Positions 37,444 through 47,303 of a DNA stretch of 64,000 nt are shown piece by piece; the first letter of the stretch is position 1; each line of letters begins with the position of its first letter. Both the position numbers and the translations under genes were made by a program. The notes beneath the pieces are model-generated. The model worked only from the letters and a program-made list of their open reading frames with translations, was not told the origin of the DNA and did not search any database. The DNA comes from Thermanaerovibrio velox DSM 12556 (lineage in GTDB: Bacteria; Synergistota; Synergistia; Synergistales; Synergistaceae): assembly GCF_000237825.1 (NCBI RefSeq), contig NZ_CM001377.1, positions 1 to 64,000 on the forward strand. Reading direction: 5' to 3'.

Positions 37444-38442
37444 CTAGTCTAAGGCCACCAAGTCCTCCGGTGAGCCAGCTATGCCGACCTCATCCCCTAT
37501 GGAGGGCACCCTTGAACTACGTGGCGTCAAGGTTTCCACCCAAATGCTCCCATGGGCAGTACCCACCCTTATTCGGGCTATGCTCCCCCTTGGGATCACG
37601 TCCTCCACAATCCCCTTTGTTGCGCATGCGTAGCCCTCGGGGTCGATTATCCTAAGCCCCTCGGGCCTTATCATCCATTGGTGATCCCCTTGGGCCCCCA
37701 GGGCCCTTGCCAGCTCCCGAGAGAGCCGGTTGGCCCGTCCCATGAAGTCCGCCACGAAGTCCCCCTTGGGGGACCTGTAGACCTCCTGAGGGGCCCCCAT
37801 CTGGACTATCTCGCCGCTCCGCATGACCGCCACGGTGTCCGCCAACTCCATGGCCTCCTCCTGATCATGGGTCACGAAGAGGGTGGTTATCCTGAGCTCC
37901 CGCTGTATGGACCTGATGTGTTCCCTGAGACGCTCTCTCACCTTAGCGTCCAATGCGGACAGGGGTTCGTCCAGCAGAAGGAGCTTTGGCCTTATGGCTA
38001 AGGCCCTTGCCAGGGCCACCCTCTGCCGTTGCCCCCCGGAGAGCTCCCAGGGCATCCTATCCTCAAGGCCCTCCAGCTCCACCATTGCTATGGCCTCCCG
38101 AACCTTCCTCCTGAGGGCGGGTCCTTTGAACCCCCGGGCGGAAAGGCCGAACGCCACGTTTTGGAAGACCGACAGGTTCGGGAAGAGGGCGTAGCTCTGA
38201 AAGACCATGCCCACGTTGCGATCTTTGGGGGGCAGGAAGGTGATGTCCCTATCCGCCAGCTTTATGGAGCCGCTGAGCACGTCCTCCAACCCCGCTACGC
38301 ACCTGAGCAGCGTGGACTTGCCGCACCCCGATGGGCCTAGAAGGGCCACGCATTCCCCTTCCCTAACCCTTAGGGTTAGGTTCCTTATCACCTCCCCGTT
38401 TCCGTAGCTCTTCCGCAGGTTCTCAATTTGAAGATGCCACAT
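37444..38442 (-). CDS. ABC transporter ATPase (PotA/FbpC type)
   Basis: A 332-residue cytoplasmic ATPase with Walker A LLGPSGCGKSTLLR, Q-loop MVFQSYALFPNLSV, signature LSGGQRQRVALARAL, Walker B LLLLDEPLSALDAKV and H-loop TTLFVTHDQEEAMEL. A C-terminal TOBE-like domain of about 90 residues follows, as in importers for polyamines, iron, thiamine or phosphonates. It overlaps the permease gene by 20 bases and is the last gene of a four-gene operon. Confidence 0.9.
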   Translation of the reverse strand: MWHLQIENLRKSYGNGEVIRNLTLRVREGECVALLGPSGCGKSTLLRCVAGLEDVLSGSIKLADRDITFLPPKDRNVGMVFQSYALFPNLSVFQNVAFGLSARGFKGPALRRKVREAIAMVELEGLEDRMPWELSGGQRQRVALARALAIRPKLLLLDEPLSALDAKVRERLREHIRSIQRELRITTLFVTHDQEEAMELADTVAVMRSGEIVQMGAPQEVYRSPKGDFVADFMGRANRLSRELARALGAQGDHQWMIRPEGLRIIDPEGYACATKGIVEDVIPRGSIARIRVGTAHGSIWVETLTPRSSRVPSIGDEVGIAGSPEDLVALD

Positions 38443-40147
38443 TCGCTATCCTCCTGATGTTCCTTAAGAGTCTCGTCTTAACCCTCCAGGGATTGCCTCC
38501 CCTAGCTCCTCCCCTCACCGCCCTCCATGCGGCGTAGGAGAGGGCGGATGCCATGGCGAAGTGGATGATCACCATGGCGCTCATGAGGTGTCCGCTTACG
38601 CCCCGGCGGTTGAATATGTAGACCTGCATGGTCTCGAACCTGGTGCCGATCAAGATGTTAGCCAGGGCGAACTCCCCCATGAGGATGGTGAACGAAAGCA
38701 GCCCCCCGGATGCCACGCCCTTCCAGAGGTTGGGCAGTACCGCCGCCGCCAGAGCTCCCGCCTTGGAGCGTCCCAATGTCATCGCGGCCTCCATTAGTTC
38801 CCTTGGGTTAAAAGCGTCCAGGGAGGAGGATATCGCCCTGCCAACAAAGGGAAGGCAGAGGGTGGAGTAGCTGAGCAGCAGCAAAACAGGGCTGCCCCCT
38901 ATGGGGGTGGAGGAGTATATGCTCAAAAGCCCCACCGAAGAGACCACCGGTGGCACCGCCAAAGGAGAAAGGCAAAGGGCCTCCAGGATCCAGGACCATC
39001 GGGGGGCGAAACACCTGGTCATCACCATGGGAGGGATGACCAGCGTCAAGGATAGGATCACCGCTCCCAGGGATACCCCAAGGGATCTTAGGATGGACAG
39101 GATGAACCTGGGATCCCCCAACAGATCCCGGTACCATATGAGGCTTAAGCCTTCGGGCAGCACCGAGGCGCCCCACCGGTAGCTGAAGGAGTGCACCAGC
39201 GTGGCCGCCAGGGGTATCAGGAGAAACCCCATGGTACCCCAGGTTATCCACCTCACGGACCAGTGTGGCAGCTCTCGGGAACCCTTGTGCAGGTATCCAG
39301 ATGGGTCGTTCCTTCCGAAGGATCTTCCCCCCTTAAGCGCCAGGGCGGTGGCGGTCAGGGTTATGATCAGAAGCAGGGAGCTCATGGCGGAGGCTAAGTT
39401 GAAGTCCAGGAAGACGTCCCCCGCCACCATGGCGCTTATCCTCAGCGGAACCAGATTGCTGTTCCCAGAGGTCAGGGCGTACGCGGTGGCGTAGGCCCCC
39501 ATGGCGTTGGCGAACAGGAGGCAGAAGGTGCCCCTTATGGATCCCATGAGCATCGGTATGCCCACCTTTGCCCAGAAGCGGCCGTCCGAGGCCCCTAAGG
39601 TCCTTGAAGCCTCCTTCAGATCCTGTCCCACCGCCTCCAGGGCGGGGTACAACGTCAAGATCCCCAGGGGCAGCTGGAAGTACGTGTAGAGCAGTCCAAG
39701 GCCCCTGTTGGAATACAGGTCCCAGGATATGCCAAGTCCCCTTAGAAGGATCGTAAACGCCCCCTGGGTGCCCAGTATCACGATGAACGCGAATGCCAGG
39801 GGCACCCCGGAGAAGTTGCTCACGGTGTTGCAGAAGGACAGCATCCTGTCCCTGAAGGGGCTTCTCATTATACCCATGGATGCCCCAAGGGCCAGCAGGG
39901 TACCCCAAAGGGAGGACCACAGGGATATGAGGACGGAGTTTTTGAAGCTCTGCCGGAGGAACGGGGACTCCCATATGCGTCGGTAGTTCTGCAAACCCAG
40001 TCCCTCCGGCCCCGTAAGGCTCATCCATGCGGTCCACCCAAGGGGAAGGAGCAGGAAGCCAAGGCACAGCAGGAACAGCAGGGACGAGGATGTGAGGACG
40101 TAGAACCCCTTCGAGCCCTCCCCGTGGAACTTAACTATCCTTGACAT
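38423..40147 (-). CDS. ABC transporter permease, two fused permease domains
   Basis: A 574-residue membrane protein in which two BPD-type permease units are fused, giving about 12 helices, as in FbpB, ThiP and some phosphonate importers. EAA-like loops are visible in each half: EAVGQDLKEASRTLGASDGRFW and LMEAAMTLGRSKAGALAAAVLP. It overlaps the phosphodiesterase gene upstream and the ATPase gene downstream. Substrate is unknown; the embedded hydrolase suggests a phosphate ester or phosphonate. Confidence 0.88.
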   Translation of the reverse strand: MSRIVKFHGEGSKGFYVLTSSSLLFLLCLGFLLLPLGWTAWMSLTGPEGLGLQNYRRIWESPFLRQSFKNSVLISLWSSLWGTLLALGASMGIMRSPFRDRMLSFCNTVSNFSGVPLAFAFIVILGTQGAFTILLRGLGISWDLYSNRGLGLLYTYFQLPLGILTLYPALEAVGQDLKEASRTLGASDGRFWAKVGIPMLMGSIRGTFCLLFANAMGAYATAYALTSGNSNLVPLRISAMVAGDVFLDFNLASAMSSLLLIITLTATALALKGGRSFGRNDPSGYLHKGSRELPHWSVRWITWGTMGFLLIPLAATLVHSFSYRWGASVLPEGLSLIWYRDLLGDPRFILSILRSLGVSLGAVILSLTLVIPPMVMTRCFAPRWSWILEALCLSPLAVPPVVSSVGLLSIYSSTPIGGSPVLLLLSYSTLCLPFVGRAISSSLDAFNPRELMEAAMTLGRSKAGALAAAVLPNLWKGVASGGLLSFTILMGEFALANILIGTRFETMQVYIFNRRGVSGHLMSAMVIIHFAMASALSYAAWRAVRGGARGGNPWRVKTRLLRNIRRIANVASSN

Positions 40148-40937
40148 CCCTTCTCACCACCTTGAGGAATTCCAGCATCAGGGCCTTCATGTCCCGTTGT
40201 CTTTCCGTTCCCTCAAAGGCCTCCATAAGCATCCCCGGGGGCTTGGGGAAGGCCCAAAGGGGCACCGTGGTCTCATCCTCAGAGGTCCCCCCATGGAGGC
40301 CCGAGGGCATCGTGCCGTGGTCGGAGGTCACGATCGCCAAGAAACCCTGGTTCACAAGGCCCTGCAGGAAGCGGGAGATCATCTGATCGCACCTCATGAC
40401 CGCCTCCACTAGCCTGTCCGAATCCCCCCCGTATAGGTGGGCGGCGTTGTCGACCCCCATGGTGTGCACCAGCGCAAGCCCCGGCCGGTGGCGCTTGATA
40501 AGCCATTCCCCGTCCTGCAGCACGTGGCTGTCCGGGTAGGCGTCGTCGAAGTAGTAGATTCCAGCGGAGATGTCCCCGGAGGGCCTATCCTGGAAGCGAC
40601 CCCTTTGGCCTAAGTCCCACTGCCCAAAGAGCTCGGCGAACCAGTTGTGTGCGGCGGCGCATGTGACAAGCCCCCTCCGTCTTGCCAGGGCGAACAGGTT
40701 TTCCGGATCCCTTTTAGGCGCCCCGTGGTGGTTGCCCATCAGCCCCGTCAGCGATGGTTCTGAGCCGGTGAAGATGCAGTGGTAGAGTGGTTTGGATATA
40801 GGCGGCAGCTCCGAAGCTATGTCCTTTCTCACCCCCATGGAGCATCGCACCATGCCCTCCAGGCAGCCCATGTGCCGGGCCGCCTTAGAGGACAGTCCAT
40901 CCACCAGGATTACCACAAGCCCCCTATCGGTTGACAT
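40131..40937 (-). CDS. Phosphodiesterase / alkaline phosphatase superfamily hydrolase
   Basis: A 268-residue protein of the type I phosphodiesterase/nucleotide pyrophosphatase fold. Visible metal sites are the first Asp in VVILVDGLSS, the Asp and His in GVDNAAHLYG and the pair in IVTSDHGTMPSG. The probable nucleophile is the serine in ELPPISKPLYH, where many relatives have Thr. There is no signal peptide, so it acts in the cytosol. It sits between the binding protein and permease genes with overlaps on both sides. A role in hydrolysing the imported phosphorus compound is inferred. Confidence 0.8.
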   Translation of the reverse strand: MSTDRGLVVILVDGLSSKAARHMGCLEGMVRCSMGVRKDIASELPPISKPLYHCIFTGSEPSLTGLMGNHHGAPKRDPENLFALARRRGLVTCAAAHNWFAELFGQWDLGQRGRFQDRPSGDISAGIYYFDDAYPDSHVLQDGEWLIKRHRPGLALVHTMGVDNAAHLYGGDSDRLVEAVMRCDQMISRFLQGLVNQGFLAIVTSDHGTMPSGLHGGTSEDETTVPLWAFPKPPGMLMEAFEGTERQRDMKALMLEFLKVVRRDVKDS

Positions 40938-42009
40938 GGATTAGCACGTTCTCCTGCCACATCCGCTGGAGCTGGGCGGTGGTGTTCTCCCAGGCCTTGA
41001 AGTCCCTTATGGGTCGGGCCTTGGCGTACTGGGACTGGGGAAGCAGCTTGCGCTTCACGTCCTCCGGCAGCTTCACCGAGGTCCTTATGGGCCTGGCGTA
41101 ACCCCTGGCCAGGTTTATCTGTCCCCGGTCGCTGAGGATGAACTCCCTCGCCAGCTTCGCGGCGTTGGGGTTCTTGGCCCAGCGGTTTATTATGGTGGCG
41201 TAGCCGGATATGAGGCTGCCGTCCGAGGGTATCAGTATCTCGAACTTGCTGCGCCCCACCTTGTCGGCGTAGCTGAGGGCGTTGAAGTCCCATAAAAGCC
41301 CCACCGCCACCTCACCCTTCTCTATCATCGCTATGGAGGGGTCGCTGGTGGAGAGCCGCCCCGCCTTGGCAAGCTTGGCGAAGAAGTCCACCGCGGGCTT
41401 TATGTTGGTCTCGTCTCCCCCCAGGGCATAGGCACATGCCAAGACCGCGCTGTTAGCCTGGGCTGCCACCCCGACGTCACCAACGGTCACCTTGTAGTCC
41501 CCATTGAGCAGGTCCCTCCAGGACCTGGGAGGCACCTTTACCAGATCCTTGTTGACCAGGAACGCTATGGTCCCAGTGTAACCCACTATCCAGTGGCCTT
41601 CTTGGTCCTTGGCCCAGGCGGGGATCTCGTCCCAGTAGGAGGTCTTGTAGGGCTGTGTAACCCCCTTCTTGACCGCTATGGGGCCGAAGGCTATCCCCAC
41701 GTCCCCCATGTCCGCCGTGGCGTTCTTCCCCTCCGCGGCGAACTTGGCTATCTCCTGGGCGGAGCTCATGTCCGTGTCCTGGTGCTCTATGCCGTAAAGG
41801 CCCTTGAGATCCCTCCAGGTGTCCTTCCAGTTCGCCCAGTCGTCGGGCATGCCAACGGTGTAGAGCTTCCCCTCTCGCTTTGCCTCCTTGACCAGATCCT
41901 TTGGAATATCCTTGGCCTCGGAGGTCCCAGGGTGAGCTAAAAGCACCGCCCCCATGCACAACACCGCCCCAGCTCGGGCAAAACGGGTGATAAAATTAAA
42001 AACCCCCAT
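40924..42009 (-). CDS. ABC transporter substrate-binding protein (family 1/6 type)
   Basis: A 361-residue periplasmic binding protein with a Sec signal peptide (ARAGAVLCMGAVLLAHPGTS, mature start near EAKDIPKD). The mature part resembles spermidine, ferric iron and 2-aminoethylphosphonate binding proteins: AKREGKLYTVGMPDDWANWKDTW, ADMGDVGIAFGPIAVKKG and FILSDRGQINLARGYARPIR. ATG 42009 follows ggaggggatacac. It is the first gene of the operon. The ligand is unresolved. Confidence 0.85.
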   Translation of the reverse strand: MGVFNFITRFARAGAVLCMGAVLLAHPGTSEAKDIPKDLVKEAKREGKLYTVGMPDDWANWKDTWRDLKGLYGIEHQDTDMSSAQEIAKFAAEGKNATADMGDVGIAFGPIAVKKGVTQPYKTSYWDEIPAWAKDQEGHWIVGYTGTIAFLVNKDLVKVPPRSWRDLLNGDYKVTVGDVGVAAQANSAVLACAYALGGDETNIKPAVDFFAKLAKAGRLSTSDPSIAMIEKGEVAVGLLWDFNALSYADKVGRSKFEILIPSDGSLISGYATIINRWAKNPNAAKLAREFILSDRGQINLARGYARPIRTSVKLPEDVKRKLLPQSQYAKARPIRDFKAWENTTAQLQRMWQENVLIHVNR

Positions 42010-42091: not shown

Positions 42092-45000
42092 TTAACGGCC
42101 GTTGGCTTGAGACTCCCGGTCCTTGCGTCCCTTCCACTCCTGCCGCACCATGTATATGAGGGGCACCACGAAGAGCGCCAGCGCACCGGACATGGCCACC
42201 CCTCCGGCGGAGGCTATCCCTATGCCGTTGGTGAACTCGCTGCCCATCCCCCGGGACACCGCAAGGGGCAGCATGCCCAGCACCGCCGCCAGGGTGACCA
42301 TGAGCACCGGCCGGAAGGAGTCCCTTAGGGCCGTCAGCATCAGCTCCTCCGGATCCGCCTTGGGGCTGCGGGATCTCAGGCTCCTGAACTCCTCCACCAC
42401 GAGGATGGCGTTGTTCACCACGATGCCTATGAGCATCACCACTCCCAGGAGCACGAAGATGTTCATGGGGGTCCCGGTTATCCAAAGGGCCCAGAGAACC
42501 CCGGTGAGTCCCAATGGTACCGTGGTCAGGATCAGCACCGGCCACTTGAAGGATTCCAATATGGCGGAGAGGGCGAGGAAGGTAAGGATGACCGAGAGGA
42601 TCCCCGCCTCCGCGAAGGCCTCGTTTGCGTCCGCCATCCGCTCGTAGTCCCCCCTGAAGGCCACCTTGTAGCCCGGGGGCAGAAGCCCTTCCGCTTCGAT
42701 CGCCTGGGAGATGTTCTTCACCGCGGTTCCAAGGGGGTACCCGGGGACGAGGTCTGAGAAGAACTTGCTTGTCCTCATCTTGTCGGACCGGTATACCTTT
42801 ATGGGGGACACCCTATCGGAGACCCGAGCCACCGCCGCAAGGGGGATGGTGCTTCCCCCGGGCAGGGGGATCTGGAAGCTCTCCACCTGCTGGCTTCCTG
42901 GTTCCTCCTTGAACTTGACACGGATGTCGTAGTTCTTCTCCGACGTCTTGAACACCGCCCCCTTTTCTCCCTCCAGGTTGTTCCTCATCACCGCCCCTAT
43001 AGCCAGGGGGGATAATCCCATGTCCGCCAGAACTGGGCGGTTGGGTCGGACCAGGATCTCCCTCTTGCCCTCCCGGACGGAGGTGTCGGTGTCCACGAAG
43101 CCCTCCATGCCCTGGGCGTGCTTTTGGACCTCCAGGGCGATCCTGTCCAGCTCATCGAAGTCCTCTCCCATTATGTCCATCTGGATCGGGATGTTCTGGC
43201 CCCCTATGAAGGACGGCACGCTCACGGTAACCTTGGCGCCCGGGAAGGACTTCATCCTCTGGCGGACCAGGTCGAGCAGCTGAAATATGCTGAGATCCCG
43301 CTGGGTCTTCTGGGAGAAGTTGAGCAGCATCTGGGCCAGGTAAACCCCTTCCTCGTTCTCCCCTATGCCCTCCACCCGTCCTATGGTGGAGTAAACGTGG
43401 TTGAGGTGGGGAAGACCCCGGAGCATCCCTTCCGCCTCCGCAACCCGCTGGACCGTGGCGTCCAGGTTCTGCCTTGTGGGGAACTCCAGCTTAACGTAGA
43501 CGTTGCCCTTGTCCACCGTTGGGGCGAAGCTGAAGCCTATCTTGGGCATCAGGGTTATGGAGTGGACGAACAGCACCGCCACCAAGATGAGCACGCCGGT
43601 GGCGAGGCCCCGCCGTTTAATCAGGTGCTTCACCATGTCCACGTACCGGTCCGCAATGCCCGAAAGGGCCTGGTTGAATCGAGCCTCCAGCCTTTCCAGC
43701 CTTCCTCCGGACGTGGCTTTTAGGAGGAAGGCGGATAGGATGGGGGTTAGGGTGAAGGATATGAATATGGACATGGCGTTCACTATCAGGGAGGTTATGG
43801 CGAAGGGCCGGAAGAACTCCCCCACGATGCTTCCCATGAGCCCTATGGGCAGCAGCACCACCACGTTGGTGCCGGCGCTTGCGAGCACCGCCACCAGCAC
43901 CTCTCCGGTGCCCTCCATGGCGGCCCGCATGGGATCCTGGGTCTCCTTTAGCTTGGAGAGCACGCTCTCCAGCACCACCAGGCTGTTGGACACCAGTATC
44001 CCCACCGAGAGCCCAAGGGCCAGCAGGGTTGACGTGTTGAGCGAGTAGCCCAGGAGGTTCATGAAGAACATGGACATGAGGATGGTCAGAGGCATGCTCA
44101 CCGCCACCACGATGGTGGACCTTAAGTTGTAGAGGAACAGGAACAGTATCCCCGCGGTGAGGGCTATCCCCTGAATGATGCTGGAGATGGTGCCGTTCAC
44201 CGATGAGCGGATGTAGGAGCCCTCGTCGGTGACCCATACCAGCTTGGTGCCCCCCGGGATCTCCCCCTGGAGATCCCGGAAGACCTCCCGGACCCGGTCC
44301 ACAAGGGCAACCGCGTTGGCGTCGGATTTCTTGACTATCTGGATGCCTATGGCCTGTTTGCCGTCCAGGAAGACCGCTTGGCGCCTTTCCTTTACGTCGA
44401 ACCTTACGTCCGCCACGTCCTTCAGGTAGGTCATTGCGCCACCCCTGGAGACCAAGGGCATGGACATGAGGTCCCCAAGGCTCCGGTAGTCCCCGTCGAA
44501 CCTGACGGCCTCCTCATCCTCCCCTTCCTTTATCCTCCCCGATGGCACCGTGCGAACCCCTTTGGCCAGCGCCTCGGTCACTTGATAGGATGTAAGACCC
44601 CGCTGGGCCAGCTTGAAGCGGTCCAGCAGCACGTGGAGCTCCCTCTTTGAACCTCCGGTGAGGCGAACCTCCGCCACGCCGGGCAGGGTGGAGAACCGGT
44701 CCTTAAGCTTCCGGTCCACGTAGTCGTAGAGCTCGTCTACCGGCATGTCCCCCACCAGGGCCATGGTGACCACCGGGGAGGCGTTTATGTCGAACTTCTG
44801 GATGATGGGCTTTTCCACCCCCTCCGGGAGGTCCGGCACTATGGGGTCCAGCTTCTCCCGCACGTCGTTCGCCGCGGCGTCCACGTCGGTGCCCATCTCG
44901 AACTCAAGCCCAACCACCGCCACGTTTTCCATGCAGGTGGTCTTTATGTGCTTTATCCCGTCCACCGAGGATACCGCGTCCTCTATCTTCTTCGCCACGT

Positions 45001-45184
45001 CGGTCTCAATGTCCCTTGGGGAAGCCCCGGGCCATATGGCCATTACGGTTATGAAGGGGGCATCCACCTTGGGCATCAGCTCCACCCCCATCTTGCGGTA
45101 GGCGTTCATGCCAAGCAGGGTGAGGGCGATCAAAAGACATCCCATGGCCACCGGGCGCCTTAGGGAGGCACTGTGAAGGGCCAT
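42092..45184 (-). CDS. RND-family efflux transporter (AcrB-like) lacking canonical proton-relay residues
   Basis: A 1030-residue inner-membrane pump of the HAE/AcrB type: one N-terminal helix, two large periplasmic domains and two groups of helices. By eye alignment with AcrB, the TM4 Asp pair (407/408) is Ser-Asn (ILVSNSLVVLES), Lys940 is Asn (VVNNAILVVEEF), Arg971 is Ser and Thr978 is Val (SFRPVLMVTLAAVLG). It overlaps the stop of the fusion-protein gene as TGATG. No outer-membrane TolC partner is present. The family call is firm; the energy source is open. Confidence 0.92.
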   Translation of the reverse strand: MALHSASLRRPVAMGCLLIALTLLGMNAYRKMGVELMPKVDAPFITVMAIWPGASPRDIETDVAKKIEDAVSSVDGIKHIKTTCMENVAVVGLEFEMGTDVDAAANDVREKLDPIVPDLPEGVEKPIIQKFDINASPVVTMALVGDMPVDELYDYVDRKLKDRFSTLPGVAEVRLTGGSKRELHVLLDRFKLAQRGLTSYQVTEALAKGVRTVPSGRIKEGEDEEAVRFDGDYRSLGDLMSMPLVSRGGAMTYLKDVADVRFDVKERRQAVFLDGKQAIGIQIVKKSDANAVALVDRVREVFRDLQGEIPGGTKLVWVTDEGSYIRSSVNGTISSIIQGIALTAGILFLFLYNLRSTIVVAVSMPLTILMSMFFMNLLGYSLNTSTLLALGLSVGILVSNSLVVLESVLSKLKETQDPMRAAMEGTGEVLVAVLASAGTNVVVLLPIGLMGSIVGEFFRPFAITSLIVNAMSIFISFTLTPILSAFLLKATSGGRLERLEARFNQALSGIADRYVDMVKHLIKRRGLATGVLILVAVLFVHSITLMPKIGFSFAPTVDKGNVYVKLEFPTRQNLDATVQRVAEAEGMLRGLPHLNHVYSTIGRVEGIGENEEGVYLAQMLLNFSQKTQRDLSIFQLLDLVRQRMKSFPGAKVTVSVPSFIGGQNIPIQMDIMGEDFDELDRIALEVQKHAQGMEGFVDTDTSVREGKREILVRPNRPVLADMGLSPLAIGAVMRNNLEGEKGAVFKTSEKNYDIRVKFKEEPGSQQVESFQIPLPGGSTIPLAAVARVSDRVSPIKVYRSDKMRTSKFFSDLVPGYPLGTAVKNISQAIEAEGLLPPGYKVAFRGDYERMADANEAFAEAGILSVILTFLALSAILESFKWPVLILTTVPLGLTGVLWALWITGTPMNIFVLLGVVMLIGIVVNNAILVVEEFRSLRSRSPKADPEELMLTALRDSFRPVLMVTLAAVLGMLPLAVSRGMGSEFTNGIGIASAGGVAMSGALALFVVPLIYMVRQEWKGRKDRESQANGR

Positions 45185-46371
45185 CAGGGGATCCTCCTTA
45201 CGATCTTAACCTTTGAGCGGTTGGACAGCATCGAGGCCCCGTCCACCGCAACCACCATCCCCTCCTTGACGTCCCCGGAGGTTATCTCGGTCCATCCGTT
45301 GGATCTTAGGGCGGTTGCCACCGGTACTTCGATGGCGGTGTCACCGCTTATGACGTAAACCGCGGGCCCTGCCTCCTTCTGCACAACCCCCTTGGAGGGG
45401 ACCCCCGTGGACTTCCTGGAGCTTATGTGAACCGTCAATCTCGCCATGGCCCCGGGGACCTTGTAAGGGCTGCCCTGGGTCCTGCAGCGAACCTCAAAGG
45501 TCCTGGTGACCGGGTCCACCACGGGGGCCTTCGTGGTCACCGTGAGCTCCTCCCGGTACAGCCCCGAGGGGTCCTCCAGGGTTATCGATGTCTTCCCGGT
45601 CCACACCTTTGGGTACAGCTCCGCCGGCAGGAACGCCTGCACCTCAAGGCTTGATGGGTCGTCTATGCGCAGCACCGGCACCCCCGGGCGCCCCATCTCC
45701 CCCGGTTCCGCCATTCGCTTGCTCACCATGCCGTCCATGGGGGCGTAGACGGTGGTGTCCCGGTAGTTCTTCTCCTCTATGCCCAGCGCCGCCTGGGCCT
45801 TTCTAAGGGACGACCGGGCAGAGCTGAGCATGCTCTCCGCTGAACGAACCATCGCTCGGGCTTGCCGGTACCGGGTGAAAACGTCGTCGAACATGCTCTG
45901 GCTTATGGCCCCCTCCTTGAGAAGCTCTGCAAACCTCTGGTAGTCCAGCTCCACCCGCTCCAGATCCGCTTTAGCCCGGATGAGGGCCTCTTGGCGCTCC
46001 TCCGTGGCGAAGCTTGCGGCCTCCAGGTCCCGCTGGGCCATCTTGAGGGCCTCCTCCTGGCGCACGTTGTCGCTCTTGAACAGGGGATCCCCCCTTTTCA
46101 CCCTGTCACCCTCCCGGACGTAGATCTCCAGGATGGTGCCATCCACCTTGGGGGTCACCGAGGCGTAGCGCAGGGCCCTTATGGACCCTTGGGTGGAGAA
46201 GTCATCGTTGAACTCCATGACCCGGGCTTGAGACACCGAAACGGGTATGCCCTTGGTTCCTGCCGTTTGGGTCTTTGGGTCCCCAGAAAACTTAACGGCC
46301 AGCGCAACCAACAAAAACGAGGCCGCCGCCCCGGCGGCAATCCAGGGGCTCCTCAGCTTAAAACTCATCAC
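45184..46371 (-). CDS. RND periplasmic adaptor (membrane fusion protein)
   Basis: A 395-residue HlyD/AcrA-type adaptor. An N-terminal membrane anchor (WIAAGAAASFLLVALAVKF) is followed by the lipoyl half-motif (GTILEIYVREGDRVKRGDPLF), a helical hairpin of about 100 residues, the second lipoyl half (YAPMDGMVSKRMAEPGEMG) and beta-barrel strands. The start is GTG 46371 or the adjacent ATG 46368, behind ggaggg. It is the first gene of the pump operon, under a promoter with a palindromic operator. Confidence 0.92.
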   Translation of the reverse strand: MMSFKLRSPWIAAGAAASFLLVALAVKFSGDPKTQTAGTKGIPVSVSQARVMEFNDDFSTQGSIRALRYASVTPKVDGTILEIYVREGDRVKRGDPLFKSDNVRQEEALKMAQRDLEAASFATEERQEALIRAKADLERVELDYQRFAELLKEGAISQSMFDDVFTRYRQARAMVRSAESMLSSARSSLRKAQAALGIEEKNYRDTTVYAPMDGMVSKRMAEPGEMGRPGVPVLRIDDPSSLEVQAFLPAELYPKVWTGKTSITLEDPSGLYREELTVTTKAPVVDPVTRTFEVRCRTQGSPYKVPGAMARLTVHISSRKSTGVPSKGVVQKEAGPAVYVISGDTAIEVPVATALRSNGWTEITSGDVKEGMVVAVDGASMLSNRSKVKIVRRIP

Positions 46372-46553: not shown

Positions 46554-47303
46554 TCAACGGGGCTTCAGGGCGTTCTCCCTTATGAGGTCCTCCAGGTCCT
46601 TAAGGGGTATATGGAACTCCACGTCTCCGTACACCCCGGGGGTGAAACGGTACCGCTCCCAGTACACCACCAGGCTCATGGGGTTGGATTTTAGGTAAAA
46701 GGACGAGGCGTAGTCCTCCGGGGAGGGCAGGTCCTGTCCCTCGTTGAGGAGCAGCTCGTCCTTTGCCATCCTCTCCTTGGCGATGCGGTTCACCGCCTCG
46801 CCTATTCGCTTTTGCCAACCCTCCTTGAACAGCCGCTGGAGGGTGACCTTCTCGCCGGTGTTGAGGTCGTAGGTGGCGGAGGAGAGGGATGTGAATGGAT
46901 GTGCCAGCTGAGGGAGGCTGATGAAGCCCCGGTTGACCACGCTGATGAAGTTGCCCTTGAGGAACGTCACCGAGGACCTGCGCTCCCCGTAGAAGGATTT
47001 TGGATCTGGGTTCGAGGTCACCCCGTAGGAGCGGACGAGCTGCATCATGTCCTCCATTGCTTTAAGCGCTTCCTGCCGAAGGGCCCGGTTTATCGACAGC
47101 TTAGCCGCCCCCTTTGCGCCCCCCTCGACCCTCGGGTACTCCACGGTTAATTTAACCCCGTTTATCTCCCGCCTAATGGTCACGCTGGATGCCCTGGGGG
47201 CTCCCTCCGCCGGGGCATGCAGCAGGTTCAGCAGCAGGGCCGCCATCAAGTACAGCAGGGCCGTGCCCTTGGCGGCGCGGTATCCACGGTTTACCTTGGT
47301 CAT
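46554..47303 (-). CDS. Exported DUF4163/DUF3298 (RsiV-like) protein
   Basis: A 249-residue protein with an N-terminal signal or anchor (GTALLYLMAALLLNLLHAPA, then EGAPRA). The body follows the DUF4163-DUF3298 pattern seen in the outer part of RsiV: INGVKLTVEYPRVEGG, SVVNRGFISLPQLAHPFTSLSSATYDLNTGEKVTL and a final TPGVYGDVEFHIPLKDLEDLI. RsiV binds lysozyme, but no sigma factor gene is adjacent and no cytoplasmic anti-sigma domain is present. It starts next to the hisD stop. Function unknown. Confidence 0.8.
   Translation of the reverse strand: MTKVNRGYRAAKGTALLYLMAALLLNLLHAPAEGAPRASSVTIRREINGVKLTVEYPRVEGGAKGAAKLSINRALRQEALKAMEDMMQLVRSYGVTSNPDPKSFYGERRSSVTFLKGNFISVVNRGFISLPQLAHPFTSLSSATYDLNTGEKVTLQRLFKEGWQKRIGEAVNRIAKERMAKDELLLNEGQDLPSPEDYASSFYLKSNPMSLVVYWERYRFTPGVYGDVEFHIPLKDLEDLIRENALKPR

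Follow-up and report, generated by a model that had tools for sequence, protein, structure and literature searches.

How is a resistance-nodulation-division (RND) exporter energised once the residues that relay protons in AcrB are gone? The question is raised by a permease gene in Thermanaerovibrio velox DSM 12556. The window analysed here comprises 64,000 nucleotides (GCF_000237825.1, NZ_CM001377.1, positions 1 to 64,000, forward strand), and the host genome was scanned as one contig of 1,880,838 bases. Replacement of D407 or D408 by Ala or Asn, or of K940 or R971 by Ala, abolishes AcrB activity in each case (PMC5546932), and the GX3DX6E motif that holds D407 is highly conserved, D408 being less so (PMC5719797). 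The features under study are collected in Table 1.

Table 1. Features of the RND locus and of the permease, in window coordinates.
Feature	Position	Strand	Evidence
RND permease, relay-less subfamily, 1030 aa	42092..45184	(-)	PF00873, 736 bits; AF2 model
Periplasmic adaptor (membrane fusion protein), GTG start	45184..46371	(-)	TIGR01730, 183 bits (cut-off 94.9)
TM4 motif GILVSNSLVVLE, G395-E406; S399 and N400 at AcrB D407 and D408	43967..44002	(-)	alignment, codons, 80 relatives
TM5 S436-A-G-T439-N440; N440 at AcrB L449	43865..43879	(-)	T439 80/80, N440 79/80; residue table
TM10 N924-N925; N924 at AcrB K940	42410..42415	(-)	alignment, codons, 80 relatives
TM11 S956 to T964; S956 at R971, V963 at T978	42293..42319	(-)	alignment, residue table, codons
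E859, periplasmic end of TM8 (AcrB S875)	42608..42610	(-)	enriched, 28/30 and 61/80

The open reading frame is intact, with an ATG start behind an AAGGAGG ribosome-binding site and a TAA stop. Its product matched PF00873 (ACR_tran) over residues 6-1013, far above the cut-off of 28 bits, while falling below the NCBIfam cut-offs of TIGR00915 (HAE-1; 431 against 940 bits), NF033617 (RND_permease_2; 669 against 1250) and TIGR00914 (HME metal pumps; 363 against 701). A monomeric AF2 model built on 25 sequences (pLDDT 80, pTM 0.74) superposed on AcrD and AcrB chains with a TM-score of about 0.90 (Foldseek), reproducing the AcrB fold with its porter and docking domains. Among solved structures, MdtB was the top sequence match (E 3.7e-109). 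The protein thus shares fold, length, PF00873 membership, an adaptor partner, the V411/L944 gate and the G and E of the TM4 frame with AcrB and other HAE-1 pumps, whereas it differs from them at all five relay positions and in its TIGR00915 score.

As in tripartite RND systems, an adaptor gene adjoins the permease gene: the adaptor stop and permease start overlap as TGATG. No outer-membrane factor (OMF) gene lies adjacent. The host genome has OMF matches at about 274.7-275.9 and 414.8-416.0 kb, the latter adjoining the only other full-length PF00873 permease of the genome. Matches to the former (G000:C1:274715-275924) are split over two reading frames, and this gene may be frameshifted or misassembled.

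Alignment to AcrB of E. coli MG1655, which also took in MdtB, MdtC and CusA, placed S399 at D407, N400 at D408, N924 at K940, S956 at R971 and V963 at T978. The TM4 frame therefore reads GX3SX6E, in place of the GX3DX6E with Asp407 of AcrB-like proton-driven pumps, and the remaining relay residues are Asn, Asn, Ser and Val. These are the five substitutions that an earlier note on this DNA had listed, and each proved correct. The note had also described the stretch from the TM10 "NAIL" to the TM11 "RP" as aligning to AcrB without gaps, which does not hold: N925-R958 spans 33 residues and AcrB N941-R973 spans 32, a one-residue insertion. The substitutions stand regardless, because each motif was anchored locally. 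Misalignment and a shifted acid were ruled out by the four-protein alignment together with a scan of all TM segments.

To delineate the subfamily, residues were counted over 80 aligned members and twelve TM core segments were scanned for Asp and Glu, with core boundaries set from AcrB. Acids were missing from both TM4 positions in 78 of 80 members. The TM4 triplets were TNS (54), SNS (11), ANS (8) and TNA (3), with one each of MNS, TNT, MDS and DNS; only the MDS and DNS members retained a TM4 acid, and an acid at 407 itself occurred in 1 of 80. These two members (L051, Met-Asp-Ser; L142, Asp-Asn-Ser) may be reversions or remnants. With 80 sequences at hand, a lone mutant or sequencing error was ruled out. 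In 61 of 80 members no TM core contained any Asp or Glu, and none of the twelve segments held a conserved acid column. The earlier note had named a conserved acidic residue elsewhere in the TM helices as the finding that would speak against it; the family's TM cores contain none.

Other positions were nearly invariant. T439 was present in all 80 members and N400, N440 and N924 in 79 each, and the equivalents of the kink glycine G403, gate residues V411 and L944, P906 and G1010 were kept in 78-80 of 80. The R971 position was more variable (Lys or Arg in 41 of 80), as was T978 (still Thr in 23 of 80). Position 979, the site of T964 and of an Asp in the sister clade described below, was Thr or Ser in 71 of 80. 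Analysis of helix faces by conservation moment gave weak moments (0.07-0.22) and was not used as evidence. The claim that the whole relay is missing therefore needs narrowing: D407 and D408 are lost in nearly all members, but the R971 and T978 positions differ from one member to another, and K940N is ordinary, since Asn940 also occurs in D407-bearing pumps, including the host's second RND pump. As read from these alignments, the family-defining change is the loss of both TM4 carboxylates, D407 and D408.

Two congeneric genomes, at 84 and 78% identity, and a further four from the phylum (47-64%) also encode relatives that lack the acids. Scans of genome contigs, identified by record title, added further relatives, mostly of 36-53% identity, from Phycisphaerae, Hydrogenedentota, Kiritimatiellae, Lentisphaeria, Muiribacterium, Riflebacterium and others. 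At a membership threshold of E <= 1e-190, the family occurred in 4 of 199 sampled genomes from the phylum of the Phycisphaerae locus, in 63 of 195 from that of the Kiritimatiellae locus, and in 30 of 68 from the phylum of both the Hydrogenedentota locus and a Nitrospiraceae-titled locus (L035). The window's own phylum had the family in 7 of 188 genomes, and paralogues there scored no better than 6.5e-177. The subfamily thus spans Synergistota, Hydrogenedentota, Planctomycetota and the Kiritimatiellae/Lentisphaeria group.

A maximum-likelihood tree of 68 rows (quick search, SH-aLRT support only) united the 30 family rows in one clade (SH-aLRT 100). The subfamily is accordingly monophyletic. Its nearest clade (99) consists of Synergistota pumps with mostly Asn-Asn in TM4. 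D407-bearing pumps fell outside both clades, except for one row within the sister clade (L093) that keeps D407, with Asn at 449 and Ala at 978. The residue table revealed a pattern across these groups. In Asp-Asp pumps, TM5 448/449 was occupied by hydrophobic or small residues but never by Thr-Asn, and position 940 by Lys. Pumps with Asp-Asn, Asp-Ser or Asp-Ala carried TM5 Thr-Thr and Asn at 940. The family and its sister clade carried TM5 Thr-Asn (one His) and Asn at 940 (one Ser), and the Asn of this pair (N440) did not occur in D407-bearing rows outside the two clades. Pumps with Asp-Asn or Asp-Ala in TM4, among them the host's second pump (G000:C1:416276-419197), share Asn at 940 and 941 and Thr at 448 with the family, whereas they keep D407, R971 and T978 and have Thr rather than Asn at 449 (L093 excepted).

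The sister clade resembles the family in mostly lacking D407 and in its TM5 Thr-Asn and TM10 Asn-Asn, but has Asn rather than Thr or Ser at 407, keeps R971 and mostly bears Asp at TM11 position 979. This combination of Asn at 407 and Asp at 979, seen in most of its rows (L013-L034, L077, L088-L090), looks like a shift of the carboxylate to a neighbouring helix. In AcrB, T978 hydrogen-bonds D407 (PMC8277102), and Asp979 adjoins the T978 position. Four sister-clade rows (L012, L083, L086, L094) have neither acid.

Selection and gene context bear on whether such proteins work. By the Nei-Gojobori method, dN/dS was 0.17 and 0.23 against the two congeners and 0.26 between them, and the TM4 Ser-Asn-Ser was kept across congeners despite high synonymous divergence; together with the intact reading frame, these ratios rule out a pseudogene. 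An OMF gene was present in the operon of 6 checked relatives, and the upstream gene was TetR wherever tested. Because of this purifying selection and the TetR-OMF-adaptor-RND operons of several relatives, family members are probably working exporters. The retained gate and kink residues, selection and operon partners further suggest that the machine has been kept while the known ion site is gone. We regard it as very likely that the window encodes a functional, selected exporter that lacks the canonical relay. The earlier proposal that the pump uses a different ion site or couples in some other way is consistent with the loss of acids across phyla, purifying selection, tripartite operons and kept gating residues.

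Our preferred reading, to which we assign a probability of roughly one in three, is that the pump may be coupled, most likely to Na+, by way of a neutral Asn/Thr/Ser hub. The trimer would still cycle through movement of TM4 against TM10, and the energising step would be the binding of a cation, most likely Na+, at a neutral site in place of protonation of Asp407/408. Such a site would be formed by Thr/Ser399-Asn400-Ser401 of TM4, Thr439-Asn440 of TM5, Asn924-Asn925 of TM10, Thr964 of TM11 and backbone carbonyls, with Na+ coordinated by side-chain and backbone oxygens of the hub. Several points temper this assignment. Ten of the 80 members have Ala or Met at position 399, which therefore need not be a ligand. 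N400 and N924 are no proof of a new site, since acid-bearing pumps can have them too, and for many organisms that carry the family Na+ energetics are not known. Sites that bind Na+ through neutral residues exist in other transporters, such as the Na2 site of LeuT. Indirect support comes from the host's V-ATPase K subunit, whose LPGTQGIY, FQGK and VETY motifs match the Na+ ligands described for E. hirae, and from VexEF of Vibrio cholerae, an RND pump that depends on Na+ and so sets a precedent for this kind of energisation (PMC8875612), although VexF heads a separate RND cluster (PMC12749989). Equally tentatively, the whole subfamily, in at least four phyla, may be energised by a neutral Asn/Thr/Ser Na+ site with no carboxylate.

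The main rival to this Na+ hub is that the pump is still proton-driven, with protons passing via a different titratable residue or along polar residues by a water wire, a doubtful though serious alternative. Candidates are E859 (top of TM8), H541 (TM7) and three retained residues towards the cytoplasmic end, E406, D/E931 and R958. E859 is the one enriched acid: 61 of 80 members have it, no row outside the family does, and upper TM8 moves during the AcrB cycle (PMC8277102). It is missing in 19 members, however, and so cannot serve the whole family, which rules it out as a universal replacement acid; H541 is missing in more than half. Acid-bearing RNDs commonly have E406 and the acid at 931 as well, so these two are not replacements. 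The Asp979 of most of the sister clade indicates that relocation of the acid is possible in this lineage, but the family itself has no conserved TM-core acid.

The remaining rivals are less likely than these two. An uncoupled or weakly coupled exporter, cycling thermally and moving substrate down its own gradient, or a charged substrate with the membrane potential, is improbable in our estimation. The titratable pair of AcrB is absent, each such change alone abolishes AcrB transport (PMC5546932), and the kept gate and kink make cycling plausible. Yet the near-invariant N400, N440 and N924 suggest a specific function for the hub, and a pure facilitator would not need them.

Mixed trimers, in which a second, acid-bearing RND subunit would do the proton work, are very unlikely here, even though some RND pumps, MdtBC among them, are mixed (PMC10872679) and the host's second permease has Asp at 407. 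That pump is encoded about 371 kb away, together with an adaptor and an OMF of its own. Most family loci comprise a single RND gene beside one adaptor, which rules out a partner RND in the operon for most of them, and few have an RND gene elsewhere in the locus (L038, L054, L060). Moreover, MdtB and MdtC form a two-gene pair in which both keep Asp-Asp and Lys, unlike the single gene found here. Least credible is a degenerate or non-transporting protein, as might be expected from the inactivation of AcrB by each relay change alone (PMC5546932), against which stand the intact reading frame, dN/dS of 0.17-0.26, the TM4 Ser-Asn-Ser kept across congeners and the retention of the family across phyla with its partner genes.

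If coupling through the neutral Na+ hub is correct, it would represent a new energy-coupling chemistry for RND pumps, derived from an ancestor with TM5 Thr-Asn whose sister branch mostly has a TM11 carboxylate instead. The Asp407 site is regarded as the engine of AcrB-like pumps, AcrB being dead when it is replaced (PMC5546932). In the open-licence papers searched, we found no description of RND pumps lacking D407, and the terms D407, motif and proton do not appear in the main text of an RND phylogeny (PMC10872679). A widespread family that is under selection and lacks Asp407, beside a neighbouring clade in which an acid mostly stands in TM11, makes the ion-gradient needs of RND pumps testable. 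Its members are natural variants for structures and ion-dependence assays, and L051 and L142 provide natural controls.

Several neighbouring genes were also recorded. A DUF3298 protein gene (window 46554-47303, minus strand) adjoins the adaptor gene, and this neighbourhood is kept in both congeners (L096, L097). Downstream of the permease gene on the same strand, window 37444-42009 encodes a solute-binding protein, a phosphodiesterase-like protein, an ABC permease and an ATPase; congener L096 retains the last three of these genes, for which congener L097 gave no match. Two V-ATPase K-type subunits were identified (L168, ORF 1438-1950; L169, ORF 1219-1695), the former of which carries the motif set of the Na+-binding NtpK of E. 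hirae.
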